Shown: piece after piece, positions 1,550-26,360 of the stretch
Numbering within the stretch: position 1 is the stretch's first letter
Layout: the number at the start of each line of letters is the position of its first letter
Source of the DNA: Williamsia maris
Lineage (GTDB): Bacteria; Actinomycetota; Actinomycetes; Mycobacteriales; Mycobacteriaceae
Length of the DNA stretch: 64,000 nucleotides
Assembly: GCF_024171815.1 (NCBI RefSeq)
Contig: NZ_JAMTCJ010000002.1
Location: 930,001-994,000, forward strand
Reading direction: 5' to 3'
Notes under the pieces: model-generated
What the model saw: the letters and a program-made list of their open reading frames with translations, nothing else
The model's database searches: none
Told to the model about the DNA's origin: nothing
Position numbers and translations under genes: made by a program

Positions 1550-1559
1550 GCTATCCTTA
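1541..1559 (+). promoter_or_regulatory. Iron box (IdeR/DmdR-type) and promoter of the NRPS
   Basis: The 19 bases acaggctaggctatcctta match the actinobacterial iron-box consensus TTAGGTTAGGCTAACCTAA at 14 positions. A -10-like TATCCT (1552-1557) lies inside the box and ends 6 nt before the GTG at 1564. The transcript is therefore probably leaderless, and a bound repressor would cover the core promoter. The box also covers the stop codon of the ABC gene, so the NRPS has its own promoter. Confidence 0.75.
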
Positions 1560-1563
1560 CCGG

Positions 1564-4500
1564 GTGACCGACATATCTGTTTCCGAACTTCTCGAAGCCT
1601 GGAACGATCGGTCTGCACCTCCGTCGGTGAGCACCGTACCGGCCATGATCGCCCCGCAGTTCGCAGCGGGCGGCGACGCCATCGCGCTCGTCCACCGGGG
1701 TCGTCGGTGGAGCTACGACGAACTCGGTGCCCGCGTCGCGCAGCTCGCGCACAAGCTGCGCGCGGAGGATCCCGACCCCGAGGACATCATCGCCATCGGG
1801 GTCCCGCGCGGGGCGGAGATGGTGGTGGGCGTGCTGGCCGTCATGGCGGCCGGGTGCGCGTTCGTCCCTGTCGACCCGTCGTGGCCCGCGGCCCGAAGAG
1901 CGCAGGTCCTCACCGATTCACGGGCGACACGCGTCCTCGTCGAGCCCGGCCGGGGCGGGGCCGATTCGGGCGAGGGGTGGTCGATCCCGACCGTGGAGGT
2001 GTCGCTGGCGGACTGGGCCTTCGGCGACGAGCCCGCCGAACTGCCCGACATCGAGATCGAGACCAGCCGGCTGGCCTACGTGATCTTCACGTCCGGCTCG
2101 ACCGGGACGCCCAAGGGCGCGATGATCCGTCACGAGGCGATCTGTGAGCGCCTGCGGTGGCAGCGCGACGAGATCCTGCACTTCGGGCCCGATGACGCGT
2201 CGCTGTTCAAGGCGCCGTTGGCGTTCGACATCGCCATCAACGAGATCCTGCTGCCGCTGGTGACCGGAGGCCGGGTCGTGGTCGCCGAGCCGGACGGCGA
2301 GAAGGATCCCGAATACCTCCTCGACCTCATCGAGTCCGAGGGTGTCACCTACGTCTACCTCGTCTCGTCGATGCTCGACGCGCTGCTCCAGCTCGACGCA
2401 CTCTCGGTGGCCGAACGGGGCCGGGACGCGTCGTCGCTGGCGGGCCTGCGCCACGTGTGGTGTGGCGGTGAGGTCCTCACGCCGGATCTGTTCCGTCGCT
2501 TCCGTGATCAGCTCACGACCACGCTCTACCACGGTTACGGTCCCGCCGAGGCGACGATCGGTGTCTCCCATGTGATCTACCGCGACGTCGCCGAGCGCAT
2601 CGCGACCTCGATCGGGTCGCCCAATCCGCACACCCAGCTCTACGTCCTCGACGAGTCCCTCGCTCCGGTGCCGCCGGGCGTCGGTGGCGAGCTCTACGCG
2701 GCCGGGTTCCTGCTCGGTCGCGGATACGTCAACGCACCCGCCCTGACCGGATCGCGGTTCGTGGCCAACCCGTTCGACACCGACGGATCCCGGATGTACC
2801 GCACCGGTGACCTCGCCCGGTGGACGCCCGAGGGATCCCTGGAGTTCCTGGGACGCAGCGACAATCAGGTCAAGATCCGCGGACGCCGCATCGAACTCGA
2901 GGAGATCGAGGCGGCGCTGGCCGATCACCCGTCGGTGCACGCCGCGGTCGTGACCGTGCGCGAGAAGCCGAGCGCCACACTGGTCGCCTACGTCACGACG
3001 GTCGCGGGTGGCGCGGCGTCGGGCACGGGGACCGACGAGCTGTTGGCGTGGGCGGCGCAGACGCTGCCGGAGTACATGGTCCCGTCGGTGATCACCGTGC
3101 TCGTCTCGATGCCGGTGACCGCCAACGGCAAGGTCGACCGGGTCGCGCTGGTGCGCCGCACCGCCGAGAACGCCCCCACGCCTGCCGTTCCGGGGGAGTC
3201 GGCGCCGCCGGTGACCCCTCGTGAGGTCGCGCTCAGTGCGGTCTTCGCCGACGTCCTCGACCTCGATCCCGGGTGGGGTGACATCGACGCCGACTTCTTC
3301 GCCCTCGGCGGCGACAGCATCGTGGCCATCCGGGTCGTCTCCCGGTTGCGGGCGCACGGCTACACCCTGCGACCGCGGGACATGTTCGCCCACCGCACCG
3401 TTCGCGCACTCGCGCCGGTCCTCGGTGACGCCGCGTCGCTCACCCCACGCACCGACGTCGAGGCCACCGGGGCCATCGGCGCCACGCCCATCACCGCCTG
3501 GCTCGACGAGGTCGGGAACGCGGTGGACGGCTTCTACCAGGGCGTCACGCTGGTCACCCCGGACGACCTCACCGAGTCGGCGCTGGCGGCGGTCCTCGAC
3601 GCCGTGGTCGCCCGGCACGAGTTGCTGCGAGCCCACACCGACGGCCCGGCAAAGGATCTCGTCGTCGACAGCGGTGACGCACACGCATCGCTGACGGTGG
3701 TCGACTCCTCCGTGGAGGGTGATCTCGCTGTCGTCATCGACGCCGCGGTGGGTCGTCTCGACCCGACTGTCGGCCGGATGGTCTCGTTCGTCTGGCTCCG
3801 CGACCTGCGCCGACTGCTGGTCATCGCACACCACGTCGTGGTCGACGGCATCTCCCTGCGCATCCTCGCCGAGGACATCGCCGACGCGCATCGACGTCTG
3901 GTGACCGACGGCTCTCCCGTCGTGGACGACGTCCCGGTCTCGTTCCGTGGCTGGGCCCACGCCCTGCGCGAGACCACCGGTGACGGCGCCTTCGACCCTG
4001 ACATCGATTTCTGGACGCAGGTGGCCTCGACGGCCGACGCGCTTCTCGGTGATCGCCCGCTGGACCCGACGGTGGACACCGTCGCCACCGAATCCCGACT
4101 GCGGGTGCAGCTGCCGACCGACGTCACCGAACGACTGCTGACCGTCGTCCCGGACTCCATCCACGGTCGGGTCGACGACCCGATGATCGCGGCGCTGGCC
4201 ATCGCGATCGAGCGGTGGCGCGACGAGCGGGGGATCGCCGGTGCCGGCTCGAACCACGCCGACGCGGTGGTCCTCGAACTCGAGGGGCACGGCCGTGAGG
4301 GCGAACTCGTCGGCGACGCCGACGTGTCGAGGACCGTCGGGTGGTTCACCACGCTCTACCCGGCGAAGCTGACGATCGGTCCGGTCACCGACACCGACCT
4401 GCGCTCGGCCCGCCTCGGTGAGCTGGTCCGGTCGGTGAAGGATCAGCTCCGCGCCGTCCCGTCGCACGGATTGGGCTACGGCGCACTGCGCCACCTCGCC

Positions 4501-4900
4501 GGCCGCGACGATCTCGCCGTCGCACCCCAGGTGCTGTTCAACTACCTGGGCCGCTTCGCGGTCACCGACACCGACACCTCGCAGCCGTGGTCCATGGTCG
4601 CGCCGGAGATGGGGTCCGCCGAGACCACCGTCCTCGAGGGGCGCGGACCGGACATGCCGCTCCCTCGCCTGGTCGAGGTGAACGCCGAGACCGCCGACAC
4701 CGCAGCGGGTCCCGAGCTGTCCGCGGTCTTCAGCTGGCCCCGTGGGGCCGTGGGCGCCGAGGACATCTCACGCCTGGCCGACCTCTGGGTCGAGACGCTG
4801 ACCGCGATCACCGTCAACGACCACATCGCCGGCCACAGCGTCTCGGACTTTCCCCTCGTCGAACTCACCGCCGACGACGTCCGGCAGATCGACTCGTCCA
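1564..4900 (+). other. NRPS module 1: A(fhOrn)-T-E, loading module
   Basis: The protein begins directly with an A domain (about aa 25-530) and no C domain, so this is the loading module. The core [11 protein letters not shown] is at about 2085. The pocket reads D-I-N-Y-W-G-G-I-G, the code reported for formyl-hydroxy-ornithine in coelichelin synthetase. The T domain has FFALGGDS at about 3298-3320. The following domain has E-type motifs: HHVVVDG (about 3832), EGHGRE (about 4285), VGWFTT and FNYLGR (about 4540). The first residue should therefore be D-configured. Confidence 0.85.
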
Positions 4901-7900
4901 CACCGGGACTCACCGCGATCCTGCCTCTGACGTCGGTGCAGCAGGGGATCTGGTTCCACTCCACCTTCTCCGACGCCCACGACCCCTACGTCGTCCAGCA
5001 GATCGTCGAGATCGACGGGGACATCGACAGGGCACGCTTCGAGGCGGCGACCGCCGAGATCATCCGGCGCCACCAGGGTCTCGGCGCCGGGTTCACCACC
5101 GTCGCCGACGGATCACCGGTCGCCGTACACGGCCGCACCGCTGCGCCGGAGGTCCGCTGGATCGACAGCAGCGCCCATTCCGACAGCGTCGAGGACGACA
5201 GCGCCGACGTCGTCGAGTCCGCCGCACGCGCGGATCGCGACCGACGGTTCGACCTGTCCGCCCCGCCGCTCATGCGCTTCACCATGGTGCGGGACACCGC
5301 GGGTGCGGGTTACACGATGATCCAGACGGTGCATCACATCATCGCCGACGGGTGGTCGGTGCCGATCGTCCTGGACGACCTGCGCACCGCGTACCGAGGC
5401 GCCCGGTTCAGAGCGCCCGCAGCGCGTTTCGACACCTATCTGCGGTGGCTGTCGGACCGGGACGCCCCCGCGGATCGCGCCGCGTGGTCGGACTACCTGC
5501 GCGGCGTCCACGGCCCCACCCGCATCGCTGCCGTCGACGGTCCGATCAACCACGGTTCGGCTGCTGCCGAAGGGGACGACCGGTACGGACGTCGTCGTCG
5601 CACCGTCGATGTCGGCGCCCGCACCCGCGTCGGCGAGTTCGCGCGGACACAGTCGGTCACCACGAGCACCGTGGTGACGTCGCTGTGGGGAATCCTGCTG
5701 AGCCGGCTGACCGGCCGGACCGATGTCGTGTTCGGCACCGCGGTCTCCGGCCGCGGCGGGGACCTCCCGGGCATCGACGACATCGTCGGTCTGCTGATCA
5801 ACACCGTCCCCACGCGAGTGCGTCACGGCGGGGGATCGGCGGTCGCCGACACCGTCCGGGCGGTCGCCGCCGCGGATCTCGGTGTGATCGACCATCACCA
5901 CATCCCCCTCTCGGAGATCAACGAGCTGACGGGTTCCGGCGACCCCTTCGACACCCTCGTCGTGATCGAGAACCTCGACCGACCGGCCGCCGACGACGAC
6001 GGATTGCGCTTCGGGGACGTCCGGGTCATCGAGGCACCGCACTACCCCGTGACTGTGATGATCGCGCTGCACGACGACATCGCGATCACCGTCACCAACG
6101 ACCGATCGGTGATCAGCGATGAGTTCGCCGACACCCTGATCGACGAATACACCGCACTCCTCACCGATCTCGACGGATCGCCCGCCCGGACGACCGCCTC
6201 GCCGCGCCCGCCTGCGCTCGAGACGCGGACGGTGGACCGTCTCCTCGCCGACGCCGCGGAGCACCACGCCGCCGCCACCGCTCTGACGATCGGCACCGCG
6301 TCGGTGACCTACGCCGATCTGGCCGCGTCCGCCGCCTCGATCGCGGCCCGCCTGATCGACGTTGGTGCGGGCCGGGGCGACGTCGTCGCTCTGCTCGCGG
6401 AACGCTCGGTCGACACCGTCGCCGGTTTGTGGGCGATCATCGCCACGGGCGCGGCGTACCTGCCGATCGACCCGACCTATCCCACCGCCCGGATCGGCCA
6501 CATGCTCGACGCCGCGGCACCGGTCTGCGTCCTCGCCGACGCCACCGGTCGGTCGATCGTCGAGGCGATGGGCGGTTCGACACCGGTCGTCGAGATCGAT
6601 TCCGACGCCACCGATGTCGGGGGAACTCTGCCCCGCGTTGCCCTGACCGGCGCCGACGCCGTGTCGGTGATCTTCACGTCGGGATCGACGGGCACCCCAC
6701 GGGGAGTCGTCGGGACGCACGGGGCCCTGGCCAACCGCCTCGCGTGGGCGGGCCGGGAATGGACCGCCCAGGTGCGGCTCGCCAAGAGCTCGCTGTCCTT
6801 CATCGACGGCACCACCGAACTGCTCGGCGCCCTGATCGCCGGAGCAACCGTCGTCCTCGCCGACGACCGGGAGAGTCGCGACGGGTCCTCTCTCGCTCGG
6901 CTCATCGACGCCGGCTCGGTCGAGCAGGTGCTCGCGGTCCCCTCACTCGCCCGTGTCCTGGCCGAGGAGTTCGCCGACGAGGTCTCCGGCGTCCGCCGAT
7001 GGATCCTCAGCGGCGAGGCGCTCGGCGCCGACACCGTCGCCGCGCTGCGCACCGCCACACCCACCGCGACGATCGTCAACTCCTATGGCTCGTCCGAGGT
7101 CGCCGGTGACGTCGTCGCCGACCACGCCGTCGATGCCGGCGCGCCCATCTCGCTCGGTCACGCCGTCGCGGGCACCGACGTCGTCGTCCTGAGCCGCGAC
7201 CTCACGCCCCAGCCGAGCGGTGTGATCGGCGAGATCCACGTCGGCGGCGTCCAGCTCGCCCGCGGGTACCTCGACAACCCGACCGCGACCGCGACTCGTT
7301 TCGTCGCCGATCCGCGGTCGGGTGCGGCGGACGGTTCTCGGCTGTACCGGACCGGCGACCTCGGATGGATCGATGCCTCCGGTGCGGTGTTCTACGTCGG
7401 CCGCACCGACGACCAGGTCGCGATCAACGGGTTCCGCATCGAACCGCGCGAGGTCGAGACGGCGATCGTCGCCCTCGACGGTGTCGCCGACGCCGCGGTC
7501 GTCCCACACGAGTCCGCGGGGATCACCGAACTGCTCGCCGCGGTCGTCGCGTCCGATCCAGACCTCACCCCACAGGCCGTCAACACCCGACTCGCCGACG
7601 AGCTGCCGCGCCATCTCGTTCCGTCGTCGGTGGTGTTCGTCGACTCGATCCCGTTGTTGCCCAACGGTAAACGCGACCGGGCGTCGCTGCTGGCCGCACT
7701 CGCCGAGTCGAGGATCGACGGCGCACGCGACACCGACTCGGCCCTCGTGGCCCCCACCACCGACACCGAACGGGATGTCGTCGGGGTCATGACCGAAGTT
7801 CTCGGAACCGACACGCTCTCGGCCGACGCCGACTTCTTCCGCCAGGGTGGCGACAGCATCGCCGCGATCCGGCTCACCGGCCGCCTCACCCGTCTGGGCC

Positions 7901-10900
7901 ATCACATCACCGGCGAGGACGTCTTCCGCGGACGGACGGCCATCGGCATCGCCGCACGGGTGGGCCGGGCGCATACGGTGCCCCGCGAGCCGGTCGAGCG
8001 GTTCGGCACGGTGCGCCTGTCGCGCAGCGTTATCGACGCCGTGATCGCCGAGTCACCGTCGCGGGTCGACGACATCTGGGCGATGACCCCGCTGCAGCAG
8101 GGTGTCTATTTCCAGTGCGCCGACCTCGACGGCGACGACGCGAACGCCGCCACCTACATCGCGCAGAACACGTTCACCCTCGACCACCGCATCGACGTCG
8201 ACGCCATGCGTGTGGCGTTCGTCGCCCTGCTCGACCGCAACCCCCAGCTGCGAGCGGGTTTTCGATCCGTCGTCACCGACACCGACACCGGCGCCGAGTC
8301 CGACACATCACTCGTCGCGGTCATCGCCGGGGATCCGCCGACCGACATCACCGTCCACGACCTCGCACGAGACAACCTCGGCGGGGACACCGAACCGGCC
8401 GCGCGTCTCGCGGCGATCATCGACGCCGATCGCACCGCGCCGTTCGATCTCGTCGCACCACCACTGATCCGACTGAGCATCGTCGAACTGCCGGACGGCA
8501 CCGACCGGATGCTGCTGACCTATCACTTCCTCCTGTTCGACGGCTGGTCGCGAGAACTGGTGCTGCGGGATCTGTTCGCGCTCTACGACGCGGCCCGCGC
8601 GGGCGCAGACGGATCAGACGAGCCGACGCCATCGGCACCGTTCACCGACTACCTGCGGTGGCTGGCCGAGATAGACCCCGCCACCTCGCGCGCGACGTGG
8701 GCGCAGGTCCTGACTGATCTCACCGAGCCGACCCTCGTCGCGGGTACGGCACGGGACAGCGTGGATTCCGCACCGCTGCAGATCTTCTCCGAGATCCCGG
8801 CGGAGCTGACCGCCGCGGTGCGCACCACCGCCGACCGGCTCGGCGTCACCGACAACGCCGTGCTGACCACGGCCCTGGCCGTCGTCACCGGTCACCATGC
8901 GGGCACCTCGGACGTGGTGCTCGGCACGACGGTCGCGGGACGACCCGGGGAACTGGTCGGCATCGAGGAGACCATCGGTCTGTTCCTGAACACCGTCCCG
9001 GCGCGGATCGACCTGACACCCGCGCGGAGCATCGCCGACGTGATCCGCGGTGTCGCCGACCAGCGCGTGGCGACGATGCCGCACGACCACGTGGGTCTGG
9101 GCGAGGTGCAGCGGATCGCCGGCCACGCGCCGCTGTTCGACTCGCTGTTCGTGCTGCAGAACTTCCTCGACGACGACACCTTCGCCGATCTCGAACGTGC
9201 GCAGGGCATCACCGGCGTCGACTACACCGACACCACTCACTTCCCGCTGACCTGGGTGTTGACGCCCGGCGCGTCGATGGGAGTCAAGCTCGAGTACCGG
9301 CCCTCGTCGATCGACACCGACCTCGCGCAGTCCATGCTGACGCGCCTGACGACGGTGTTGTCGCAGATCGTCACCGACACCGACCGTGCCATCGGTGCGC
9401 TCACGTTGGTGACCCCCGCGGAGCAGTCGGCCCTCGAGGCCGATCGGCACGCAGGAGACCACGACTTCGAGCCGCTGACCGTCGCCGAGCTCCTCGCCGA
9501 TCAGTCGGCGCGACGCGGTGACACCGTCGCGCTGGTGTTCGGGCCGGCCGGCGATGAACAACAGCGCGTGACCTATTCCGAGCTCGACGCGCGCATCAAC
9601 CGGATGGCGCGTCTGCTGCTCGCCCACGGTGCCGGTCCGGAACGGATCGTCGCACTCGACCTGCCGCGATCCGTCGACATGGTGGTCGCACTGTTCGCCG
9701 TGCTGCGCAGCGGCGCTGCGTATCTCCCTCTCGAACGCGAGTACCCGACCGAACGGCTCGCCGCGATCGTCGACGACGCCCGACCCACCATCCTGCTCAC
9801 CGATCTCGGCGGGACCGAACTCACCACCGCGGCGGCCGAACGCGGCTGCGACGTCGTCGCTCTCGCCGATCCCGACGTGATCGCCGGCATGGCCGCCGCG
9901 CCGGCCGGTGCTCTGACCGCCGACGAGCTGGGTGCCTTCGCATTCGGCGCCGATCGCCTGCGCCACCCGGCCTACCTGATCTACACCTCGGGATCGACCG
10001 GCAAGCCCAAGGGGGTCGTCACCCCCTACGTCGGTCTGACGAACATGTATCACAATCACGCGACCGCGATCTTCGACCCGACCGTCGCGCGTGCCGACCG
10101 CGGCACGGATGTGCCTCTCGCCGTTGCCCATACGGTGTCGTTCTCCTTCGACATGTCCTGGGAGGAACTGTTCTGGCTCGTCGCCGGCCACGAGGTGCAC
10201 ATCTGCGACGAGGAACTTCGTCGCGACGCGGTCGGTCTGGTCGAGTACTGCCGTGCGCACACCGTCGACGTCATCAACGTCACACCGACCTACGCGCACC
10301 ACCTGATCGACGCCGGGCTGCTCGACACCGATCAGCACAACCCGGCCCTGGTCCTGCTCGGCGGCGAGGCCGTCACCGACACGGTCTGGTCCCGTCTGCT
10401 CGACGCCCCCGGCGTGGACGGCTACAACCTGTACGGTCCCACCGAGTACACGATCAACACCCTCGGTGCCGGTACCGCCGACAGCGTCACACCCACCGTG
10501 GGACAGGCGATCTGGAACACGCGCAGCCACATCCTCGACACCGCCCTGCGCCCGGTCCCCGACGGTGTGGTCGGCGAGTTGTTCATCGCCGGGGTCGGTC
10601 TGGCGCGCGGTTACCACCGCCGCCCGGACCTGACGGCGGCCGCGATGGTCGCCGATCCCTTCACCGCGGGCGGACGCATGTACCGCACCGGTGACCTCGT
10701 GCGTCGCCGACCCGACGGCAACCTCGACTACCTCGGCCGCAGCGACGACCAGATCAAGATCCGTGGCTACCGCGTGGAACTCGGCGAGATCGAGAGCGTG
10801 CTGTCGACGATCGAGGCCGTGGCACGGTGCGCTGTGATCGCCCGATCCGACGCCGCGGTCCCGGGGATGAAGACCCTGGTCGCCTACGTGATCCCGGTCG

Positions 10901-13900
10901 ACGCGGAGCGCGATCCGGCCGAGCTGATCGCCGACGTGCGCGACCGACTGGCCCAGGTCCTGCCCGCCTACATGGTGCCGACGCGTTACGGCGTCGTCGA
11001 CGACCTCCCGCTCACCGTCAACGGCAAACTCGACGTCGCGTCGCTCCCGGAGCCCGTCGCGGCCACCCGCGCCGACGCCCGTGACCCCCGCTCGGCCAGT
11101 GAGCAGATCGTCGCCGAGCTGTGTCAGACCATCCTCGGCATCGACCGCGTCGGCATCGACGACGACTTCTTCGCGCTCGGTGGCGACAGCATCTCGTCGA
11201 TCTCGCTGTCGAGCCGGGCCGCGGCCAAGGGGCTGCGGATCAGCTCCCGCGACGTCTTCCGTCGGCGCACGGTCCTCGCGATCGCCGCCGCCGCGACGAC
11301 CGTGTCGGGAGCGGGTGACACCGAGGACGTCGGTGTGGGCACCATCCCCGCGACCCCAATGCTCGCCGAGACCCGCACGGACGGGACATCGCTCGACGCG
11401 TTCTACCAGTCGATGGTGCTGCGGACCCCGGTCGGCATGACGCACGATCAGCTCACCGCGGTCCTCGACGCGCTGGTCACCCGACACGACCTGCTGCGTG
11501 CCGAGGTGGTCGGGTCAGACGCATGGGAGCTCGTCGTCCCGACCGACGTCACCGTGCGTGACCGCTACCGTCTCGATCTGTCGGACACCGACTTCGGCTC
11601 GGGTCGTCTCGACGGGGCCATCGCCGAACGGGCCGCGGCCCTCGACGCACGTGGCGGGGTCATGCTCACCGCGGCGTGGCACCCGGGTACCGACCCGGGC
11701 ACGAGCGGTCAGCTCCTGCTCGTCATCCACCACCTCGTGGTCGACGGTGTCTCGTGGCGCATCGTGGTCGAGCACCTCGCGCAGGCGTGGGCGCAGGTCC
11801 GCGCGGGCAAAGACCCCCGGATCGAGCCCGTGGGGACGTCCTTTCGCCGCTGGGCGGAGCTGCTGACCACGACGATGGCGGGTGGGGCGCAACGCGCCGA
11901 GATCGACCACTGGACTGCGACCCTCGAGCCGGTCCCACCCATCGGCGACCGTGTACTCGACCCCGCCGTGGACACCGCGGCCACCACCCGCACCATCACC
12001 GTGGACCTGCCCGCCGACGTCACAGCGGTGATCGCGGGACCACTGCCGTCGGCGATCTTCGGCGGCGTGGACGACGTGCTCCTGGCCGGGTTGTCGCTGG
12101 CGAGCCGAGCGTGGCGTGCGGACCGCCATCCCGGCGTCGACCCGACCGCGCGACTCCTGGTGAACCTCGAGGGACACGGTCGACGCCCCGAGGTCCTCGG
12201 CGCGGTCGGTGATCACGTCGGACTGGCCGAGACCCTCGGCTGGTTCACGGCCATCCATCCCGTCGCGGTCGACGCCGGCGACGTCGAGTGGGACGACGTC
12301 CTCGCCGGCGCACCCGTCCTCGACAGCGCGCTCAAGGCGGTCAAGGAACAGGTGCGGTCCACCCCGTCTCAGGGCATCGGTTACGGCATCCTGCGGTACG
12401 TCGACGAGGTCGGAGAGCTCGTCGACCTGCCGACCCCGGAGATCCTCTTCAACTACCTGGGTCGCTTCGACACCGCCGACGGGACGACGGACGTGCCCGA
12501 CTGGGCGTCGGTCCCCGGGATCGGCGAACTGCGCGAGGGCGTCGATCCGACCAACCCCGCCGCGGCACTCGAGATCAACGCCCGGATCGACGCGAACGGC
12601 CGTGGCGTGAACGGGGCCGCGCGTTTCGTCGCCGAGATCACCTGGCCCACCGGCATCCTCGACGACGCCGCGGTGACGGACCTGGCGGACCGCTGGATGG
12701 CGGCGTTGACCGGACTCAGCCGAGCGCAGGTCGGCGGGCACACACCGTCGGACTTCGGCCAGGTGGAGCTGACCGCCGACGACATCGCCGCCCTTGCCCC
12801 GGCCGACCGGCCGGCCGACGACATCCTGCCGCTGCTCCCGCTGCAGAGCGGCATGTACTTCCACTCGTTGCTGCTGGCCGGGGACCGGGCAGCGGGCGCC
12901 GACGTGACCGATCCCTATGTGGTGCAACAGGTCGCGGCCATCACCGGCCGGGTCGACGTCGACCGGTTCGCCGCGGCGATCGATGCCGTCGTCGCCCGCC
13001 ACGCGGCGCTGCGTGCGCGGTTCGCGACCACGTCATCCGGCGCCCTGGTGCAGGTCGTCGAATCCCACTCGAGCATCGAGTCCCACTCGCCCGTGCACGT
13101 CGAGCAGGTCGACCTGCGATCGGACGCCGATCCGGCTGCGAGCGCCGACACCTGGGCGGTGCAGGCGCTGGCCCGACCGTTCGATCTCGACGCCGCGCCA
13201 CCGATCCGTTTCGCGTTGCTGAGCGTGTCCGACACCGAACACCGACTCGTGCAGACGATGCATCACGCGCTCGCCGACGGCTGGTCGTACCCGCTGATGT
13301 TCGCGGACCTGTTGTCCGCGTACCGCTCCGGAGCCGCGTCCCTCCCGCCGGTCGCAGTGGATCTCGCCGACCACGTCGCCGCGGTCCATCGCGGCGACAT
13401 CGACGACGCCCGCGCGGTCTGGACCGAGGCGCTGTCCGGGGTCGACGGCCCGACGTCGATCGCGGAACACCTGCCGCCATCGGCGATGACGACGGTCGCG
13501 GCGACCGGACACCGTGACGTCTCGACCACCCTGTCCGAGGACGCCACGGGAGCACTGATCGCGGCCGCCCGCACCCGAGGGGTCACCGTCGGCGCCGTCG
13601 TCCACGCCGCGTGGGCACTGGTCCTGGGACGCATGACCGGCACCGACTCCGTCGTATTCGGCTCGACCGTGTCGGGTCGCGCGGGCACCGATCCCGACGT
13701 CACCGGTGTCGTCGGACTGCTCATCAACACCAACCCGCTCGCGGTGTCGTGGCAGGGCCACGACTCGCTGGCCGACGTGGTCGCCGGGGTGGCGGCCTTC
13801 CAGCTCGACGTCATGGACGCCCAGCAGGTGGGGCTCACCGAGATCGCCCGCTTCACCGGGCATCCGACACTGTTCGACACGATGGTCGTCGTCGAGAACT

Positions 13901-16900
13901 TCCCCGATGTCCCGGACGTGCCAGGGGCAGACCCTGACGCCCTGCGCGTCACCGGCTTCACCGGCACCGACACCCCGCACTACCCGGTGTCGCTGGTGGC
14001 GTTCCCCGGCGACGAGCTGACGCTGGAGATCAAGTACGACAGCGCCCTGGTCCCCGAGCACTACGCCACCGGTCTCACCCGCGCCGTGGCCACGGTGATC
14101 GACCAGTGGACCGCCGACCCCGAACGTCGGGTCGCCGCAACCGCTCTCGACAGCACGCAGACAGCCGCGACCTCGCAGGGAACGGGTCGCTCCGAGACCA
14201 CCCTCCTCGATCTCGTCGCCGCGTCCCACGCCCGCGATCTCGACGCTGCCGCCGTCACGTTCGACGGCGCCTCGGTGACCCGTCGCGAACTCGACGAGCG
14301 GTCGAATGCACTGGCTCGCATCCTGATCGACGCGGGGGCCGGACCCGAGACGCGCGTCGGTGTCGCACTGCCCCGCGGAATCGACCTCGTCGTCGCCGTC
14401 CTCGCCGCGGTCAAGTCCGGTGCGGCCTACGTCCCCCTTGACACCGATTCGCCATCGGAACGACTGCGGTACATCACCGGCGACGCCGGCCTGGCCGTCC
14501 TCATCACGTCGCAGACCCTCGCCGAACCGGTGCCCGTCTCCGACGTCACGACCACGATCCTGCTCGACGGCGCGAGCGATCGAGCCCGTATCGACAGCGC
14601 AGCAACCGATCCGATGACTGACGCCGACCGCGTCGCCCCGCTGCGGCCCGCGCACCCGGCGTACCTGATCTACACCTCGGGATCGACCGGTGCACCCAAG
14701 GCCGTCGAGATGCCGCACGCGTCGGTCGTCGACCTCTTCGCCGCGGCGAGGGTACGGATGTCGCTCGACGACCAGGTGTGGACCATGTTCCACTCCATCG
14801 CCTTCGACTTCTCGGTGTGGGAACTGTGGGGTGCTCTGTGCCACGGCGGACGTCTGGTGATCGTCGACGGTGAGACCTGCCGCGATCCCGAGCGTTTCGT
14901 CGACCTGCTCACCCGCGAGCGCGTCACGCTCCTCAGTCAGACCCCGTCGGCGTACTACCCCCTGGTCGATCAGCCCGGGTTCGCCGACCTGTCGGTGGAG
15001 ACCGTCGTCTTCGGCGGCGAGGCACTCGATCTCGACCGGGTGCCCGCCCGGGAGAACACCCGTCTGATCAACATGTACGGGATCACCGAGACCTGCGTGC
15101 ACGTGACCGATCACGACCTCGCAGTCGACTCCGGCGCCGGCCGGGCGAGCGTCATCGGCACGCCGCTTCCCGGCCTCGACGTGCACCTCCTCGACCACCA
15201 CCTACAGCCCGTCCCCGCCGGCCTGATCGGTGAGATCTACGTGTCCGGAACCCAACTCGCACGCGGTTACGCAGGTCGGGCGGCGCTGACGTCGACCCGA
15301 TTCGTCGCGCACGAGTCGGGCACCCGCATGTACCGCAGCGGCGACCTCGCCTACCGCGACACCGCAGGTGACCTCGTCTACCTCGGCCGCGCCGACCAGC
15401 AGGTCGCGCTGCGTGGCTACCGCATCGAGCTCGGCGAGGTCGAACACGCGTTGCGGCAGATCGACGGCATCGTCGACGCCGCGGCCGCGGTGGGCGACGA
15501 CCGCACCGGCCGCAGCATGTTGACCGCGGTCGTCGTCGGGCAGGACCCGAACGGGCCGGTCCCGCACATCGACGACCTCAGAGCAGAACTGACGCAGCAT
15601 CTCCCGGGCTACATGATCCCGGCGCGGGTGGCGTCGGTGGCGGCCCTCCCGCTCACCGTCAACGGCAAGATCGATCGGACGGCCGTGGTCGGTGCGGCGT
15701 TGGTCGAGCCGACCGCACCGGCGGAGTCCGCGGTGGCAGCCCCGACCTCGGCTGCGGCCGCACCGACCGACGCCGACGGACTCGCCGCGGTGGTCGCCGA
15801 CCTGCTGGGACTCGACCACGTCGGTCCCGACGACGACTTCTTCAGCCTCGGCGGCGACAGCATCGTCGCCATCTCGCTCGTCAACCGGGCGAAGGCGTTG
15901 GGCGTCACGCTCTCGCCGCGCGACGTCTTCACCCACCGCACGGCACGCGCCCTCGTCGAGGCCGGGGGAGTGGAGCCCGCGACGGTGAGCGTGAGCGTGG
16001 ATCCCGACCGCCACGATCCCGACCGTGACGGCGATGTCCTGCTGACCCCGATCGTGCACCGACTCAACGAACTCGGCGGGACCATCAGCCGACTCAACCA
16101 GGCCGAGGTGCTCTACACCCCGGCCGGCGCGAACGAGTCGCAGATCCGCGCCCTGCTCGACGCACTGGTCCGGCGACATGACGCGCTGCGCCTGCGGTTG
16201 ATCCGCATCAGCCCGCTGTTGTGGTCGACCGAGGTCGACGCACCCACCGCGTCGGCGGCGCCGATCCTGCGCATGGTCGACGGCACCGCCTCCGGTCTCG
16301 ACTCCGCCGACGGCACCGCCCTGACCGCGGCGATCGCCGAGTACTCCGACGAGCTCACGGGTCTGCTCGACCCGGACGCCGGTCAGATGGTCGCGGCGGC
16401 CTGGATCGACGCCGGCCCGGATACGCGTGGCCGGCTGATCCTGGTGATCCATCACCTGGCCGTCGACGGCGTGTCCTGGCGGATCCTGCTCGACGATCTC
16501 GCCGCCGCATGGACCGACGTCGCCCAGGGGCGGACCCCGGAACTGCCTGCCGCGACGACGTCGCTGCGCAGCCACGCCACCGCGCTCACACAGCGTGCCG
16601 CCCATCCGGACCTGCTGGGCGAGTTCGAGTTCTGGCGGGCGCAGATCGAGCCGGGCGCCGACCTCCTGCTCGACGTCTCGGCCGGTCCCGTGCCCGTCGG
16701 GCTGACCGTCGGCCAGACCGTGCAACGCACGATCACCGTCGACACCGCACTCACCGAGCGGCTGCTGACCTCGATCCCGGTGGCCTACGAGGCCGACATC
16801 ACCGAGACGCTCGTGGCGAGCTTGGCGCTGGCCGCCGCACGCGTCCGCGGCGGCGAGGGTGAACTGCTCATCGACCTCGAACGACACGGTCGTGACCTGG

Positions 16901-19900
16901 ACCTCGACGAGATGGACCTGACCCGGACGGTGGGATGGTTCACCACCATCGCCCCGGTCCGACTCCCGGCCGTGACCGCATCCGGTGACGTGGCCGCCTC
17001 GGTGGGCGCGGTTCGCGATGCGATGCGCGGTGTCCCGGACGGCGGTGTCGGTGCCCGGGGCATCGGCTTCGGGCTGTTGCGCTACGCCAACCCGCGGACC
17101 GCGGGTCTGCTCGCCCGCGGTGCGGCACCGCAGGTGCTGTTCAACTATCTGGGTCGGAGTTCCGAGGGGCGCGAACGTGATTGGCTGCCGGCCGCCGAGT
17201 CCTCGGCGCTACGGACTGCGCCGGACCCCGATCTCGGCACCCCGTACCTCCTCGAGATCAACGCCGTCTGTATCGACGGGCCGGACGGACCCGAACTGCG
17301 GATCCACCTCACCCATCCACGGGACGGGATCGCGGGCTTCGACGTCGACCGACTGGGCGACGACTGGCTCGCCGCCCTGGCCGATCTGGACTCCGCGGCC
17401 GCGTCGGCGTCGACCTTCACTCTGCGTTCACTTCCCGAGGACGATCGCACCGCGCTGACCGATCGCCACGGAACCGCCCTGAGCGACGTCTGGCCGCTGT
17501 CGCCGCTGCAGGAGGGCCTGTACTTCCAGGCCACCAGCTCCGACGTCGACGTCTACGTCGCCTGCAATGCCTTCGACCTGGACAACCGCCTCGACGCGGA
17601 CGCGCTGCGCGACGCGATGGGCGAGGTGATGGCGACCCATCGCGCCATGCGATCGGGGTTCGTCACCACGGCGAGCGGGCGACTCGTGACGGTGATCGTC
17701 GACGACCTCGAGGTGCCGCTCACCGAGATCGACCTGACCGACGTCGCCGCGCGCGACCTCGCCGAGCGCCTGGACGAGATAGCCGACGCCGATCGGGCGA
17801 TCCCGTTCGACCTGTCCGCGCCGCCGCTGCTACGGCTCACCCTGGTGCATCTGCCCGAGGGACGAGACCGGTTGATGTTCACCTACCACCTGCTGCTGTG
17901 GGACGGCTGGTCCCGCGAATTGGTGCTCACCGACTTCTTCGCGGCCTACGACCGGCGCGTCGGACGGACCCCATCGGTGATCGACGCACGACCGGAGGAT
18001 GTGCGTGCTGATTTCACCGACTACCTGCGCTGGGTGGACGAGCAGGACACCGACGCCTCGGCGCAGGCGTGGAGGGACCACTTCGCCGGACTCGAGGAGA
18101 CCTCGATCCTGTACCCGGCCGCGGTCGGCACCGACCCGGTGCTGGCCCGGCGGGTCGACGTGGAGTTCTCCGAGGCCGAGACCGAACAGCTCGGAACTGC
18201 GGCCCGCCGGGCAGGGGTGACGACCCACGCACTCATCAGCACCGCATTGGCACTGCTGCTCTCGCGCCGTCTCGGGCGCGCCGACGTCGTGTTCGGGACC
18301 ACCGTCGCCGGTCGTCCCACCGATCTCGACGGCATCGACTGGGTCGTGGGCGTCTTCCTCAACACCGTCCCGGTGCGGGTGACGATGGCGCCGTCCGATC
18401 GGGCCGCCGACGTCATGCGGCGCGTTCAGGACGACCGCATCGCGATGATGGACCACGAGTACCTGGGGCTGGGGGATGTCCAGCGGCAGGCCGCCCAGGG
18501 TCAGGGACGCAGCGATGGCGGCGCCCTGTTCGACAGTCTCTACGTGCTGCAGAACTTCCTCGGCGACGACACGTTCACCGAACTCGAACGGGCGCAGGGG
18601 ATCACCGCGGTCGACGCCGTCGACGCCACCCACTATCCACTCACCTGGGTGGCCATGCCCGGCCGCCGACTCTGGCTGAAACTCGAGTATCGGCCCGACG
18701 TCGTCGACGCCGACGAGGCACACGGTCTGCTCGACGAACTGCGCACGATCCTGCTCGCCGCGTCGCACGACGTCGACCGCGGTGTCGCCGCCCTCACCGG
18801 ACCGATCGACGGGGCAGGCGTCGAGATCGCCGGTCGTACAGTCGACATCGACGATGTGACCATCGCCGAGATGCTCGCCGAACAGGCCCGTCGGACCCCC
18901 GATGCGCCGGCACTCACCCAGGGTGGCGAGCACGTCGACTACCGCCGACTCGTCGAACGGGTCAACCGCACCGCCCGGCTGTTGCTCGACCACGGCGCGG
19001 GTCCGGAACAGATCATCGGCCTCGCGTTGCCGCGGTCGGTGGACATGGTGGTCGGGCTGTTCGCGGTGCTGTCGGTGGGCGCGGCCTATCTGCCGCTCGA
19101 CCTGTCGGCGCCCGACGAGCGCATCGCCGATCTCGTCGACGACGCCGCACCGCTGCTGGTCCTCGTCACCGAGGACACCCGGTCCCGGATCGACGGTGCC
19201 GCAAACGTTGTCATCTCCGACGCCGCCCGACACGCCGGTGACCCGCTCGATGCCGCGGAGCTCGGCGCGTTCGCCTCAGCCTCCTCCGGTCACAGCGGGG
19301 ACCTGCGTCTCGACCACCCGGCCTACGTCATCTACACCTCCGGGTCGACCGGGAAGCCCAAGGGCGTGGTCACCGGGTACCGCGGTCTGACCAACATGCA
19401 GATCAACCACCGGACCGAGATCTTCGCACCGGTGATCGCCGCGGCCGGTGGCGCCACACTCACCATCGCCCACACGGTCTCGTTCGCGTTCGACATGAGT
19501 TGGGAAGAACTCCTCTGGCTCGTCGAGGGCCACCACGTGCACATCTGCGACGAGGACCTGCGTCGCGACTCGGCCGCACTGGTCGCCTACTGCCGTGACC
19601 ACAGCGTCGACGTCATCAACGTGACCCCCACCTACGCCACGCAACTCCTCGAGCAGGGACTGCTCGCGCAGTCGTCTGACGGCGGTGCGGGCTGCCCGAA
19701 ACTCGTACTCCTCGGTGGCGAGGCGGTGTCGGATCAGCTGTGGACGGCGCTGCGCGACACCCCGGATCTGTTGGGCTACAACCTCTACGGACCCACCGAG
19801 TACACCATCAACACCCTCGGCGTCGGGACCGACGACTCGGATCGGTCGGCAGTGGGCACGCCGATCACCAACACCACCTGCTCCATCCTGGACGGATGGA

Positions 19901-22900
19901 TGCGGCCGGTCCCGGACGGCGTCAGCGGCGAGTTGTACATCCGCGGAGCCGGTCTCGCCCGCTGCTACCTGAACCGACCGGGACTGACCGCGGCCGCGTT
20001 CGTCGCCGACATCGCGGGCACCGGCGAGCGGATGTACCGCACCGGCGACCTCGTCCGCCGACGCCCGGACGGTCTCATCGACTACCTGGGTCGCACGGAT
20101 GACCAGGTGAAGATCCGCGGCCATCGCGTCGAACCCGGCGAGGTGACCGCGGTGATGCTGACGCTGCCCGGCGTGACCGGTGGATCGGTGATCGCCGCAG
20201 CCGACGACTCGGGGACGAAGCGATTGGTCGCCTACGTGATCCTCGACGATGGACGCCGGGACGGTGCGCACCAGGAAGAGGACTTCCTCGGCTCCGTGCG
20301 TACCGGGCTGGCGTCGAGCCTCCCCGGGTACCTCGTGCCGACCGCGTACGCGATCGTCGACGCGCTGCCGTTGACCATCAACGGCAAGCTCGACGTCGCG
20401 GCACTCCCGGAGCCGAAGGTAATCTCCACCCGCTCGCGCCCGGCCGCCGACGACACCGAGCGCGCGCTGTGCGAGCTGTTCGCGGTGGCGGTCGACGTCC
20501 CGGACGTGGGCGTGCAGGACGACTTCTTCGCCCTCGGCGGTCATTCGCTGCTGGCCACCCGTCTGCTCGGCATGATCAACGACCGCTTCGGTTCGTCGCT
20601 GCGGGTGCGCGACCTGTTCGACGCCCCGTCGCCCGAGGCGGTGGCCCGCCGGATCGCCGCGGCCGACTCGGAGGGTGCGGGTGCCGGGCAGCCGCTCGTG
20701 CCGCGCTCGGGCGTCGGACCGGCACCGCTCGCGCCACCGCAGCAACAGCTGTTCGTGATGTCGCGGATCGACCCGACGTCGACCTCGTACCTCTACCCCC
20801 TCGCGGTCCGGGTGCACGGGCACCTCGACGCCGACGCCCTGCGCGCCGCGCTGCTCGCGGTCATCGCTCGGCACGAACCGCTGCGCACCCGATTCGTCGA
20901 ACGTGACGGACACGTCGTCGCCGAGGTGCTCGACGCGTCCGCCGTCGACGCGGAGCTCGTGTCCCGGATCGAGCGGGTCGACGAGTCGGCGCTCGACACC
21001 GTCGTCGCGTCGGAGCTCAGCCGCCCCATCGACCCCGCGGCCGACCTGCCGATCCGATCGACACTGATCGAGGTCGGGAACGACTCGGTGCTGCTGCTGT
21101 GCCTGCACCACCTGGCGGCCGACGAGTGGTCCGACGCGGTCCTGCTCGGCGATCTCGACCGCGCCTACCGCGCGGCGGCCGCCGGCTCGGACCCGGCTGC
21201 GGCCCTGGACGCGGTCGAGGTCACCTACGGCGACTACGCGCAGTGGGCCCGCGACCGGCTGGGTGACCCGGCCGAGGACTCGAGTGCGTACTCCACGCAG
21301 ATCGGATACTGGCGAACACAACTCGCCGATCTCCCGCCGGAGGTCACCGTCAGCCCCGACCTCGTGTCCACCCGACCCGGCCGAGCCGACGAGGTGTCCG
21401 CACACGTCGACACCGCCGTCGCCGAGCGACTCCGGTCGGTGGCCGGGGACGCGGGAGCGACCGTGTTCATGGCGGTGCACGCCGCGCTCGCGGTCACGCT
21501 GCGCAGGTTCGGTGTCGGCGACGACGTCGTCATCGGCAGCCCGCAGTCCGGACGCACCGAGGCCGCCCTCGCCGACCTCGTCGGGTTCTTCGCCAACACC
21601 GTCGTCCTCCGGACGGACCTGACCGGCCGGCCCACGTTCGACGAGCTGTTGACCCGTGTGCGCACAGTCGATCTCGCCGCCCTCGACCATGCCGACGTGC
21701 CGTTCGCGGACGTGGTCGGTGCGCTCAACCCGGTCCGGTCCCCGGGCCGCAACCCGTTGTTCGCGGTGATGCTCGGGTACTTCCGCAGGCAGTCCGGCGG
21801 AGACGCGGCTGCGATGTTCGGTCTAGGCACGGCCGACGTCGACGTCACCCCCGCCGAGGCCAAGGTCGACCTCAACCTGACCTGCATCGACCACGGTCCC
21901 GGCGCCCCGATCGAGCTGGTGCTCGAGTACGACTCGTCGCGCTACCTCGAGGCGACTATGCGCGATCTGACCGACTGCCTGGCACGGGTGATCGACACCG
22001 CCGCAACCACTCCGCACACCGGTGTCGCCGACCTCGGCGTGGTGGCGACCACGGGTGCGCCGGACGAATCCGTCTCGACGCCCACCCGTTGGTACGCCGA
22101 ACTCGACGATTACGCAGCCCGCAGCCCGCGCACACCGGCGGTCGTCGCCGGGGGAGAGGACGTGTCCTACCGGGCGCTCACCGAGCGCAGCCAGGTCATC
22201 GCGGCCCGACTGGCGCACGCAGGAGTCGGGGCCGAGTCGGTCGTCGCGCTCGCCATCGACCGCACCGCGGACCTCGTGGCCGCGATGGCCGCCGTGCACC
22301 GACTGCACGCGGCATACCTGCCGCTCGACCTGACGTTGCCCACCGATCGGCTGGCCTACATCGTCGACGACGCCGCACCGGTGCTCGTACTGACCGACGG
22401 GCACGCCGACCTGAGTTGGTCATCGGTCCCGGTGCGAGCGGTCGACGACACCGGGTGGGCATCCGACGGTGACGACTCGTCCGCGGTGCCCGGCTCACCA
22501 CCGACGCCCGACCTGGCCGCGTATCTGATCTACACCTCGGGGTCGACGGGAAAGCCGAAGGGCGTCACCATCACCCACCGGGCACTGGACACCTTCCGGT
22601 CCGGGCTGGACCGGGCCCTCCCGATCGATGCGGACGACGTCGTCCTCGCCGTCACCACGGTGTCGTTCGACATCGCGGTGCTCGAGCTGATTGTCCCGCT
22701 GACCACCGGTGCCACCGTCGTGCTGGCGGGAGCGTCGGAGGCCGCCGATCCGCGTCGCCTCGGCGAGTTGATCGCGGCGAACGTCGTGACCGTTGCACAG
22801 GCCACCCCGTCGCTGTGGGCGATGGTGACCCGACACCGCGACGTCGACGGCCGATCGATCGACCTCTCCGGGATCCGCGTCGCCGTCGGCGGTGAGGCGT

Positions 22901-24645
22901 TGCCGTCGGACCTGGCAGGCGAATTGGTGCAGCGGGCCGCGCAGGTGACCAACATGTACGGGCCCACCGAGGTCACGGTCTGGGCCACCTCGGCGCAGAT
23001 CGACGCGGACTCGGCCGCCCGACCGCCGATCGGCTCGCCGTGGGACACCGTGGACGGGTACGTGCTCGACGCCGACCTGCACCCCGTGCCCGCGGGCGTC
23101 GTCGGCGAGCTCTACCTCGGCGGGGCGCAGGTCGCCCGCGGCTACCACGACCGCTTCGGTCTGACCTCGGAACGCTTTGTGGCCGATCCCTTCTCCGCCG
23201 ACGGCACCCGGATGTACCGCACCGGTGACGTGGTCCGCGTGCGACGTGACGGCACCCTCGAGTACCGGGGCCGATCGGATCACCAGGTCAAGATCCGCGG
23301 TCACCGGATCGAGCCCGACGAGGTCGCCGCGGCGTTGCGGCGGATCGACGGCGTGACCGACGCCGTCGTCGTCGCCGATGACCACGCCACGGTCGGATTG
23401 CGCCTCATCGGTCATGTCGTCGGCACCGACCTCGACGGGAGCGCGCTGCGCACCCGGTTGGGGTCGTCGCTCCCCGGGCACATGGTGCCCGCGCGCATCG
23501 AGATCCTCGACGCGTTGCCGCTGACGCCCAACGGCAAGGTCGACCGGAATGCGTTGCCGGCGCCGACCGACGCCGGATCTGACGGCGCGGCATCCGACGG
23601 TGCCGCGGCAGCCGACCTGACGGCCACCGAACGGGCGGTCGCCGACCTGTTCGGCGACATCCTCGACGTCCAGGCCACTGACGCGCACGCCGACTTCTTC
23701 GCACTCGGCGGGCATTCGCTGCTGCTGGTGCGGCTCGCCGAATCGCTGGCCGAGCGGTTCGATCTGCGCATCGAGGTCCGAGAACTGTTCGGCCTCAGCA
23801 CCGTCGGGGCGCTGGCCGCCCGGATCGACGATCCCGCGACCCGGTCCACCGGTGACGCCCTCGACCCGGTCGTCCGGTGGGGAGCCGACACAGGGTTCGC
23901 CACCACAGGGCCCACCGAGGCGACACCGGTGATCTGCCTGCCCCCGGCGAGCGGGATGTGTTGGGAATTCGCGGGACTGGCGCGGGCCCTCGGACCCCGC
24001 GTCCCGGTCATCGGACTGCAGTCGCGGTCGCTGACCGATCCGTCGGTGCTCGGTCGCCCGTTCGACGACGTGGTGATCGATTACTGCGACCGCATCGACG
24101 AGCTCGGTGTCGGCCCACGAATCGCCCTGGTGGGCTGGTCGTTCGGCGGCATCGTCGCCGTCGCGATCGTCGGTGAGCTCCGCCGCCGCGGCTACACCGT
24201 CGAGCCACTCATCGTGCTCGACGCGTACCGACCCGACGGCGCGCCTCCGGCCGATCGTCACCTCGTGACGCTGCTGCAGGAACTCGGGATCGACGTGCCC
24301 GCGGACGAGTCGGTCACGATGGACACCGCGGTTCGGCTGGTGGCCGACGACGACGACTTCCTCGCCGCACTCGGCGACGATGCCGTTCGGTCGGTGATCG
24401 ACACCTATCTCGACAGCGACCGGATCATCGCCGAAGCGGCACAGGCCGACTCGGGATCCACTCTCGACGCCGAGCCCGTGATGTTCCTGCAGTCGACGGT
24501 GCTCGAGGCCGGATTCGACGGCAACTCCGCCGCCGGGTGGCGGACGGCGCTGCCCGTGCTCGAGGTCGTCGACGTCGACGTCCCGCACTCGCAGATGCTC
24601 ACCGGACCCGCCGTCGAGATCATCGTCGGCCTGCTCAGACGCTGA
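1564..24645 (+). CDS. Six-module NRPS, predicted exochelin-like hydroxamate siderophore synthetase
   Basis: One uninterrupted frame encodes 7693 aa with the order A-T-E / C-A-T / C-A-T-E / C-A-T-E / C-A-T / C-A-T-TE. Aligning the A domains by eye to GrsA gives these pocket codes: module 1 DINYWGGIG (formyl/hydroxy-ornithine), module 2 IDTLISSGD (beta-alanine type, Asp235 absent), modules 3 and 5 DMENLGLIN (hydroxy-ornithine), module 4 DFWSVGMVH (threonine), module 6 DILQAGMVW (glycine-like). All six A domains keep the A10 NGK lysine. Predicted product: D-fhOrn, beta-Ala, D-hOrn, D-allo-Thr, L-hOrn, then possibly Gly. The first five residues equal exochelin MS. In mycobacteria the corresponding synthetase is split in two proteins (FxbB and FxbC, from memory). 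I chose GTG 1564 over ATG 1516 because the iron box and its -10 place transcription start at 1564, and 1516 lies inside the ABC gene. Confidence 0.93.
4901..8040 (+). other. NRPS module 2: C-A(beta-Ala)-T
   Basis: The C domain has an intact HHIIADG at 5332. The A domain has [11 protein letters not shown] at about 6673. In place of the usual FD at pocket 235 it has FID, giving I-D-T-L-I-S-S-G-D. Loss of Asp235 is expected when the substrate amine sits on a beta carbon, and the pattern fits the published beta-alanine consensus VDxVISxxDK. The T domain has FFRQGGDS at about 7837-7860. There is no E domain, as expected for achiral beta-alanine. Confidence 0.82.
8041..12810 (+). other. NRPS module 3: C(variant)-A(hOrn)-T-E
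   Basis: The C domain motif at 8524-8544 reads HFLLFDG, so the second His of HHxxxDG is Phe. The A domain ([11 protein letters not shown] at about 9982) has the pocket D-M-E-N-L-G-L-I-N, identical to the hydroxy-ornithine code of coelichelin module 3. The T domain has FFALGGDS (about 11170). The E domain has HHLVVDG, EGHGRR and FNYLGRF. C-A-T is closely similar to module 5. Confidence 0.85.
12811..17460 (+). other. NRPS module 4: C-A(Thr)-T-E
   Basis: The C domain has an intact HHALADG at 13261. The A domain ([10 protein letters not shown] at about 14672) has the pocket D-F-W-S-V-G-M-V-H, one change from the threonine code DFWNVGMVHK. The T domain has FFSLGGDS (about 15840). The E domain has HHLAVDG, but its second motif reads ERHGRD instead of EGHGRE; other E motifs (VGWFTT, FNYLGRS) are present. 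Epimerising L-Thr at C-alpha gives D-allo-Thr. Confidence 0.85.
17461..20690 (+). other. NRPS module 5: C(variant)-A(hOrn)-T
   Basis: The C domain motif at 17887-17907 reads HLLLWDG, so the second His of HHxxxDG is Leu. The A domain pocket is again D-M-E-N-L-G-L-I-N (hydroxy-ornithine). The T domain has FFALGGHS (about 20527), the form seen on carriers not followed by E. No E domain follows, so the residue stays L. Confidence 0.85.
20691..24645 (+). other. NRPS module 6: C-A(Gly-like)-T-TE, release module
   Basis: The C domain keeps both His residues (HHLAADE at 21106; the last Gly of the motif is Glu). The A domain pocket D-I-L-Q-A-G-M-V-W is closest to glycine codes of the DILQLGxxWK type. 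The T domain has FFALGGHS (about 23695). The C-terminal thioesterase has the nucleophile in GWSFGG (about 24133), Asp in VLDAY and His in VPHSQM. Exochelin MS has no glycine, so this module is either productive here, giving a longer product, or used only for release. Confidence 0.75.
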
Positions 24646-25952: not shown

Positions 25953-26360
25953 ATGCGGCGAACAATGTTGGGTGGCAAGGTGCACCGGGCCACGGTGACC
26001 CAGGCCGACCTGCACTATGTCGGGTCGATCACGATCGACCACGACCTCATGCTGGCCGCCGACATTCTCGACGGCGAGCAGGTCCAGGTCGTCGACATCA
26101 CCAACGGTGCGCGGTTGTCCACCTACGTGATCGCCGGCGCGGCCGGGTCGGGAGTCATCGGGATCAACGGTGCCGCAGCACATCTCGTCGGTCCGGGTGA
26201 TCTGGTGATCATCATGTCGTTCCGTGAGGTCGAGGAATCCGAACTCGCCGGCCACGAGCCGCGGGTGGTGCACGTCGACTCCGACAACCGGATCGTCGCC
26301 CTGGGCAAGGATCCGTCGCAGCCGGTTCCCGGCGCGGTCGATCAGTGGGCGAGCGCCTGA
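25953..26360 (+). CDS. panD: Aspartate 1-decarboxylase, predicted siderophore-dedicated beta-alanine supplier
   Basis: PanD converts L-aspartate to beta-alanine and CO2. It is made as a proenzyme that cleaves itself at a Gly-Ser bond, and the Ser becomes the catalytic pyruvoyl group. The 135-aa protein has the normal family length, the start [16 protein letters not shown] and the cleavage site YVG-S at Gly24-Ser25. Its usual partner is panC in coenzyme A synthesis. Here it lies behind an iron box and its stop (TGA) shares one base with the ATG of the N-hydroxylase, so the two are translationally coupled. Together with the beta-alanine-specific A domain in NRPS module 2, this points to a siderophore-dedicated copy. 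Enzyme identity is very firm; the dedicated role is inferred. Confidence 0.95.

Follow-up and report, generated by a model that had tools for sequence, protein, structure and literature searches.

The 64,000-nucleotide stretch of the Williamsia maris genome analyzed here (positions 930,001 to 994,000 of contig NZ_JAMTCJ010000002.1, referred to as the window) contains a gene cluster which we read as an exochelin-type hydroxamate siderophore pathway. At its center stands one open reading frame (ORF) for a nonribosomal peptide synthetase (NRPS) of six modules. The full reading, including a glycine-adding module 6 and condensation (C) domains C3 and C5 that acylate the δ-nitrogen of N5-hydroxyornithine (hOrn), is given a probability of roughly 0.75; the exochelin-type identity taken alone is very probable. 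The cluster would carry the exochelins beyond mycobacteria to Williamsia, and it predicts a new congener.

The synthetase and its residue order

The NRPS ORF codes for 7709 amino acids counted from its first ATG at 1516. A GTG at 1564, 15 bases past the end of the upstream ABC transporter gene at 1549, is an equally possible start. The initial annotation had described a single polypeptide of 7693 amino acids at 1564-24645; the ORF scan likewise gives one six-module NRPS, for which this start is as good as the ATG. The ORF is coding-like, with a third-position GC content of 0.88. Its domain order is A-T-E-C-A-T-C-A-T-E-C-A-T-E-C-A-T-C-A-T-TE (A, adenylation; T, thiolation; E, epimerization; TE, thioesterase), as obtained with profiles made from the domains of the NRPS itself and hence self-labelled; Pfam AMP-binding, Condensation and PP-binding were matched independently in residues 1-2495. 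The E domains that close modules 1, 3 and 4, also annotated initially, are recovered with the own profiles, and TIGR01720 matches E1 and E3 above its cut-off of 74.2 bits and E4 below it (Table 1), with C2 unmatched.

The pocket residues of the A domains, listed as codes in Table 1, were picked by eye from the translation in an assumed GrsA register. Alignment columns read by script agree with the reading by eye, except that a MAFFT gap prints A3 and A5 as DMWN and that some last letters are misprinted. We take the code of A1 to stand for N5-formyl-N5-hydroxyornithine (fhOrn), those of A3 and A5 for hOrn and that of A4 for Thr. The code of A2, IDTLISSGDK, is also found in the synthetase of Mycobacterium neoaurum (G014), whose product, which we take to be exochelin MN, presumably holds β-alanine (β-Ala). 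The previously annotated order fhOrn, β-Ala, hOrn, Thr, hOrn and a Gly-like residue is borne out by these codes, and domain order, codes and cluster genes agree on an assembly line of the exochelin type. Modules 1 to 5 are alike in kind across all 33 intact synthetases compared, each of which carries DINYWGGIG in A1.

Proposed pathway

The sequence itself shows the genes and their arrangement, the succession of domains, the residues of the A-domain pockets, the loss of a histidine in C3 and C5 and the conservation of these features; from them we infer the following reactions. The monooxygenase of the cluster would provide hOrn, a formyltransferase encoded just outside the window would lead on to fhOrn, and the cluster copy of aspartate 1-decarboxylase (PanD) would supply β-Ala. 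The single NRPS would join D-fhOrn, β-Ala, D-hOrn, D-allo-Thr and L-hOrn; module 6 would then append the residue of its Gly code before the thioesterase frees the chain. C3 and C5 are proposed to couple the growing chain to the δ-N-hydroxyl group of hOrn, which would create two of the three hydroxamates. In exochelin MS, as we assume, each hOrn carries its acyl group on the δ-nitrogen and is thereby a hydroxamate. A protonated hydroxylamine is far more acidic than a protonated amine, and such an acceptor may need no help from a histidine in C3 and C5. Finally, the ABC transporter pair would export the siderophore and the binding protein would take it up, presumably under regulation by iron.

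Relatives and host

Of 38 related loci fetched, 32 are intact and show the same order on one ORF. The other six lie outside the orthologue set, being broken or cut (G001, G009, G215) or of different order (G014, G017, G020). The gene was found in 6 of 8 genomes of the genus Williamsia and in 33 of the 396 Mycobacterium genomes searched; open frames of at least 7475 amino acids are present for 28 of the 33 mycobacterial matches, the remaining five being shorter and not all examined. The host, initially thought to be probably a Gordonia, has Williamsia as its nearest named relatives: the monooxygenase is 91% identical to that of a Williamsia metagenome-assembled genome, and in genus-mates the gene occupies the same contig positions as in the genomes of W. 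deligens, W. serinedens and further Williamsia.

The use of one protein, in place of two synthetases in M. smegmatis, had been put forward as a distinction. FxbB and FxbC are, however, fused in the M. smegmatis annotation (PMC5550956), and both are entered under MSMEG_0019 (PMC8371482). Since one ORF is usual in the relatives (32 of 38) and in the M. smegmatis annotation, the number of proteins is not counted as defining; judged from the reading frames, a single polypeptide is the usual form of an exochelin-type synthetase.

The exochelin MS cluster of M. smegmatis (fxbA, exiT, MSMEG_0019 as fxbB plus fxbC, and fxuD) was compared by way of two loci, G100 and G367, which are called M. smegmatis-type for the tRNA-Ile and tRNA-Ala genes upstream and are not necessarily from M. 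smegmatis itself. The same two tRNA genes lie upstream of the exochelin locus on the M. smegmatis map (PMC2170428). Both loci share with Williamsia codes 1 to 5, the E domains, the six modules on one ORF, and the order formyltransferase, MbtH-like gene, two ABC exporter genes, NRPS, binding protein, panD and monooxygenase; an MbtH-like gene, MSMEG_0016, is reported within the M. smegmatis cluster (PMC3537567). They differ in A6, which is of the Gly type in Williamsia and reads DTWDTG(L/N)VD in the M. smegmatis-type loci. The domains of the Williamsia NRPS are 31-68% identical to those of mycobacterial synthetases.

Module 6

The initial annotation had stated that the assembly line reproduces exochelin MS. 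This stands with respect to residue order and E positions, but it leaves out a sixth module that is also present, differently coded, in related mycobacterial synthetases. Code 6 reads DILQAGMVW in all five intact Williamsia genes, and all 28 mycobacterial ones have DT(W/V)DTG(L/N)VD (in the script-printed version the last letter is absent or wrong in some rows). The Gly-like character assigned to this module holds up: PMC12283262 quotes DILQLGMIWK as a Gly code, and A6 matches it at 8 of 10 positions. A tree of 210 A domains gives Gly-coded domains as the closest neighbors of the Williamsia A6; the mycobacterial A6 has as its closest neighbor one of the A domains in the M. neoaurum synthetase (the smallest clade with both has 67 members and a support of 0.27). 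As far as the codes tell, module 6 is the true difference between the Williamsia and mycobacterial exochelin-type synthetases.

The M. neoaurum synthetase has the order β-Ala, an A-less module, a DMEN-coded A domain with an insert, DTWDTGLVD and DAWEGGLVD. Exochelin MN is composed of β-Ala, β-Ala, α-methyl-ornithine, ornithine (Orn) and cyclic hOrn. Because the module order fits this composition, β-Ala as the substrate of IDTLISSGD is supported, and the comparison suggests that the mycobacterial sixth module takes Orn.

Every motif checked in A6, C6, T6 and TE is kept. The ratio of nonsynonymous to synonymous substitution rates (dN/dS) between the NRPS gene and that of G315 is 0.20 for A6 and 0.26 for C6, the remaining A, C and E domains ranging from 0.10 to 0.25. 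Since code 6 is of the Gly type and A6 and C6 are constrained like other domains, we expect Williamsia to make the exochelin core extended by Gly, in the form of an acid or a diketopiperazine, unless the residue is lost. The calculated desferri [M+H]+ values are 609.320 for the pentapeptide, 666.342 with Gly and 648.331 with Gly as diketopiperazine; the ferri forms of the first two come to 662.232 and 719.253.

Several points weigh against the pathway proposed here. The product is deduced from the genes, with codes read by eye; a scan of the window and of the genome stretch preceding it (L009) for one IdeR-type consensus, allowing up to three mismatches, gave no box; and T6 is the least constrained domain, with a dN/dS of 0.33 in the same comparison. 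Moreover, module 6 may leave no trace in the finished siderophore, because the M. smegmatis exochelin is termed a pentapeptide derivative (PMC2170428), yet related synthetases, among them those of G100 and G367, have six modules. The product could thus be a plain pentapeptide as in exochelin MS, with module 6 skipped or its residue removed and the Gly code without effect. We consider this unlikely in view of the intact motifs of A6, C6, T6 and TE, of the constraint on A6 and C6 and of a code 6 that is fixed per genus; in addition, G100 and G367 need not be M. smegmatis itself. A second possibility concerns the end of the chain: after addition of Gly, the free α-amine of a δ-N-linked hOrn5 might attack the Gly thioester and close a terminal diketopiperazine, as in erythrochelin, in place of a free acid. 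Linkage through the δ-nitrogen by C5 would indeed leave this amine free beside the thioester. The thioesterase with its intact GWSFGG motif would also allow hydrolysis, however, and cyclization is regarded as a tentative alternative.

C6 keeps the second histidine and the aspartate of its motif in 33 of 33 synthetases, and its common forms are all HHxxxDE. For the C3 domain of fuscachelin this motif is reported with a Gly acceptor (PMC8097023), which resembles the Williamsia C6; unlike there, mycobacterial C6 domains, the majority of those compared, combine it with a non-Gly code. The idea that HHxxxDE signals an hOrn donor in the module before was also considered, but it does not hold strictly across the C domains compared. 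Three of the 32 intact related synthetases (G015, L110-L111; G022, L096-L097; G165, L149-L151) have a seventh module with the same A code as their sixth. We lean towards the joint view that exochelin synthetases combine a constant five-residue core with an exchangeable last module and that they share the C-domain subtype described below.

Condensation domains lacking the second histidine

In all 33 synthetases, both hOrn modules have a C domain whose HHxxxDG motif lacks the second histidine, which is replaced in C3 by Phe throughout and in C5 by Phe (28) or Leu (5); the first histidine and the aspartate are retained. C2, C4, C6, E1, E3 and E4 keep the second histidine in 33 of 33. The motif was read from alignment columns, which are free of gaps here, PvdL included. 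Apart from the missing histidine, C3 and C5 carry these canonical C-domain traits, and C5 is predicted to adopt a normal C-domain fold (predicted local distance difference test score, pLDDT, 91.4), with solved NRPS C domains as best matches.

The association extends beyond the orthologues. Among 207 distinct C-A pairs from other actinobacterial synthetases, the histidine is missing in 95 of 103 hOrn-coded pairs and in none of the 104 others; this set excludes C domains no longer than 381 residues, C-A gaps of at least 80 residues, identical sequences, L304-L305 (repeats) and L283 (split ORF). Searches with C-A queries are biased toward C3-like domains, and only their best matches were turned into loci. 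In a sample from a search with A domains only, the histidine is missing in 31 of 36 hOrn-coded pairs versus 0 of 11 others (of 55 matches, 30 were taken as loci, 22 were fetched, L172 and L247 were already in the set and one came without upstream sequence). A Fisher test on the 207 pairs takes no account of kinship; with one member per cluster at less than 60% identity, some orthologues included, the figures are 27 of 31 versus 0 of 65.

Eight hOrn-coded pairs keep the histidine: two Nocardia brasiliensis loci (L045, L048), G837 (L293), the second hOrn module of G860 (L251), and L280, L281, L284 and L289, which belong to a Gly/Ser/hOrn cluster; L176 is not counted as distinct. In wider stretches of G1007, G1057, G974, G421, G837 and G860, most of these exceptions stand on the last or single module. 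It is our guess that the eight are linked through the α-nitrogen.

Of the 107 His-less C domains, 105 fall into one clade free of His-bearing members (support only 0.30), which suggests a single subtype with distinctive marks rather than many separate losses. The marks include Arg at C5 position 334 (97% vs 1%), and the residues replacing the histidine vary between Leu, Phe, Val and Thr. We are inclined to think that this distinct subtype, found beside hOrn A domains across actinobacteria, acylates the δ-N-hydroxylamine and dispenses with the second histidine, a residue commonly regarded as catalytic. The role of this histidine in C domains is debated (PMC11546977, PMC8097023). No report of a link between hOrn and His-less C domains was found in titles or abstracts in a mostly non-targeted literature search that left subscription papers largely uncovered.

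Alternatively, the loss in C3 and C5 may mark an ancient side branch within the C-domain family that says nothing about the acylated nitrogen, another residue serving the α-amine. The single clade is compatible with this: the histidine may have been lost just once, long ago, and the genome counts are not independent. Some C domains also stay active after mutation of the second histidine (PMC11546977). On the other side, the histidine is missing in 0 of 104 other-coded pairs and its replacement varies. The M. neoaurum synthetase, in the stretch read, lacks it only before the DMEN-coded module and keeps it before the last two modules, in keeping with the structure of exochelin MN. A mere side branch is therefore judged improbable. 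If acylation of the δ-nitrogen by the subtype is correct, δ-N versus α-N linkage would be readable from sequence, and a natural His-less group tied to one acceptor with an unusual nucleophile would make the debated role of the histidine testable in natural enzymes. As the A-domain code is silent on which hOrn nitrogen is linked, structure prediction for hydroxamate siderophores would improve.

Other hydroxamate systems

Besides the β-Ala code and the His-less C domain before a DMEN-coded A domain, the M. neoaurum synthetase shares with the Williamsia cluster HHxxxDE C domains after that module and a panD-monooxygenase pair. It is unlike it in its start, the A-less module after β-Ala, the insert in the DMEN-coded A domain and its last modules. 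Streptomyces ORFs of about 3650 amino acids, which we take to be the coelichelin synthetase CchH, likewise carry a His-less C domain in a hOrn module, and fhOrn and hOrn codes presumably occur in coelichelin-type synthetases as well. A coelichelin-like or other fhOrn siderophore is nevertheless highly improbable, as the β-Ala module, panD, the six modules, the exporter pair and the gene order are those of a mycobacterial exochelin locus; CchH has three modules and no β-Ala.

Cluster genes and neighborhood

Table 1. Features of the Williamsia cluster (positions in the window unless L009 is given)
Feature	Position	Strand	Basis
Second half-transporter of ABC exporter pair (ExiT-like), cut by window start	38..1549	+	Pfam ABC_membrane and ABC_tran
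Second half-transporter, whole gene	L009:14756-16549		genome stretch preceding the window
Six-module NRPS	1516..24645	+	7709 aa (ATG 1516) or 7693 aa (GTG 1564)
A1, DINYWGGIGK (fhOrn, presumed); T1 follows	1651..3168	+	translation, own profile
E1	3469..4845	+	TIGR01720 97.1 bits
A2, IDTLISSGDK (β-Ala, putative)	6247..7707	+	code as in M. neoaurum synthetase; panD nearby
C3, Phe in place of the second His of HHxxxDG	8053..9489	+	alignment; Phe in 33/33
A3, DMENLGLINK (hOrn, presumed)	9496..11064	+	translation, own profile
E3	11338..12750	+	TIGR01720 93.1 bits
A4, DFWSVGMVHK (Thr, presumed)	14218..15705	+	translation, own profile
E4	16030..17421	+	own profile; TIGR01720 63.7 bits (cut-off 74.2)
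C5, second His replaced by Leu	17437..18870	+	alignment; C-domain fold predicted
A5, DMENLGLINK (hOrn, presumed)	18877..20424	+	translation, own profile
C6, HHLAADE (HHxxxDE type)	20689..22089	+	motif alignment
A6, DILQAGMVWK (Gly-type)	22105..23574	+	translation; quoted Gly code; A-domain tree
Thioesterase, GWSFGG	23911..24645	+	GWSFG in 33/33 synthetases
Siderophore-binding protein (FxuD-like)	24737..25726	-	Pfam Peripla_BP_2 1.6e-25
PanD, cluster copy	25953..26360	+	TIGR00223 161.8 bits (cut-off 106)
Ornithine N-monooxygenase, start overlapping panD	26345..27670	+	Pfam Lys_Orn_oxgnase 1.1e-96

The window starts inside the cluster, and L009 upstream holds the rest of the ABC pair, the formyltransferase and the MbtH-like gene. 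The FxbA-like formyltransferase gene (L009:11729-12727) lies on the opposite strand 2.3 kb before the window and has a 68-76% identical counterpart in mycobacterial loci. It is adjoined by the MbtH-like gene (G000:C2:927823-927978), located between it and the ABC pair. The ABC gene directly before the NRPS has a 56-68% identical counterpart in mycobacterial loci and a 94% identical one in G315.

The cluster PanD shares 70-98% identity with its counterparts in related clusters and 67% with the product of a second panD elsewhere in the same genome; because of this other copy, the cluster PanD is probably a dedicated source of β-Ala. PanD beside a monooxygenase was considered as a sure sign of a β-Ala module. 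Two Rhodococcus loci with this pair both contain the β-Ala code, but the idea is weakened by L306 and L307 (Gly/Ser/hOrn cluster), which have PanD and no β-Ala code in the stretches read.

Upstream, two cytochrome P450-like genes adjoin the cluster (L009:8212-9432 and 9490-10973, the second possibly split by a frameshift), and three more ABC transporter genes lie in a row at L009:392-5915. Directly after the cluster follows a GlfT2-like galactofuranosyltransferase gene (window 27675-29525), an orthologue of which is found nearby in three Williamsia loci (L010, L013, L019). Further downstream, an arginase-family gene (56307-57215) stands beside an ATP-grasp-like gene (55113-56279); this may have a bearing on ornithine supply, or none. 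Elsewhere in the same genome, at about G000:C3 809102-905828 (L003-L008), there are very large NRPS open frames of 13802 and 11325 amino acids.

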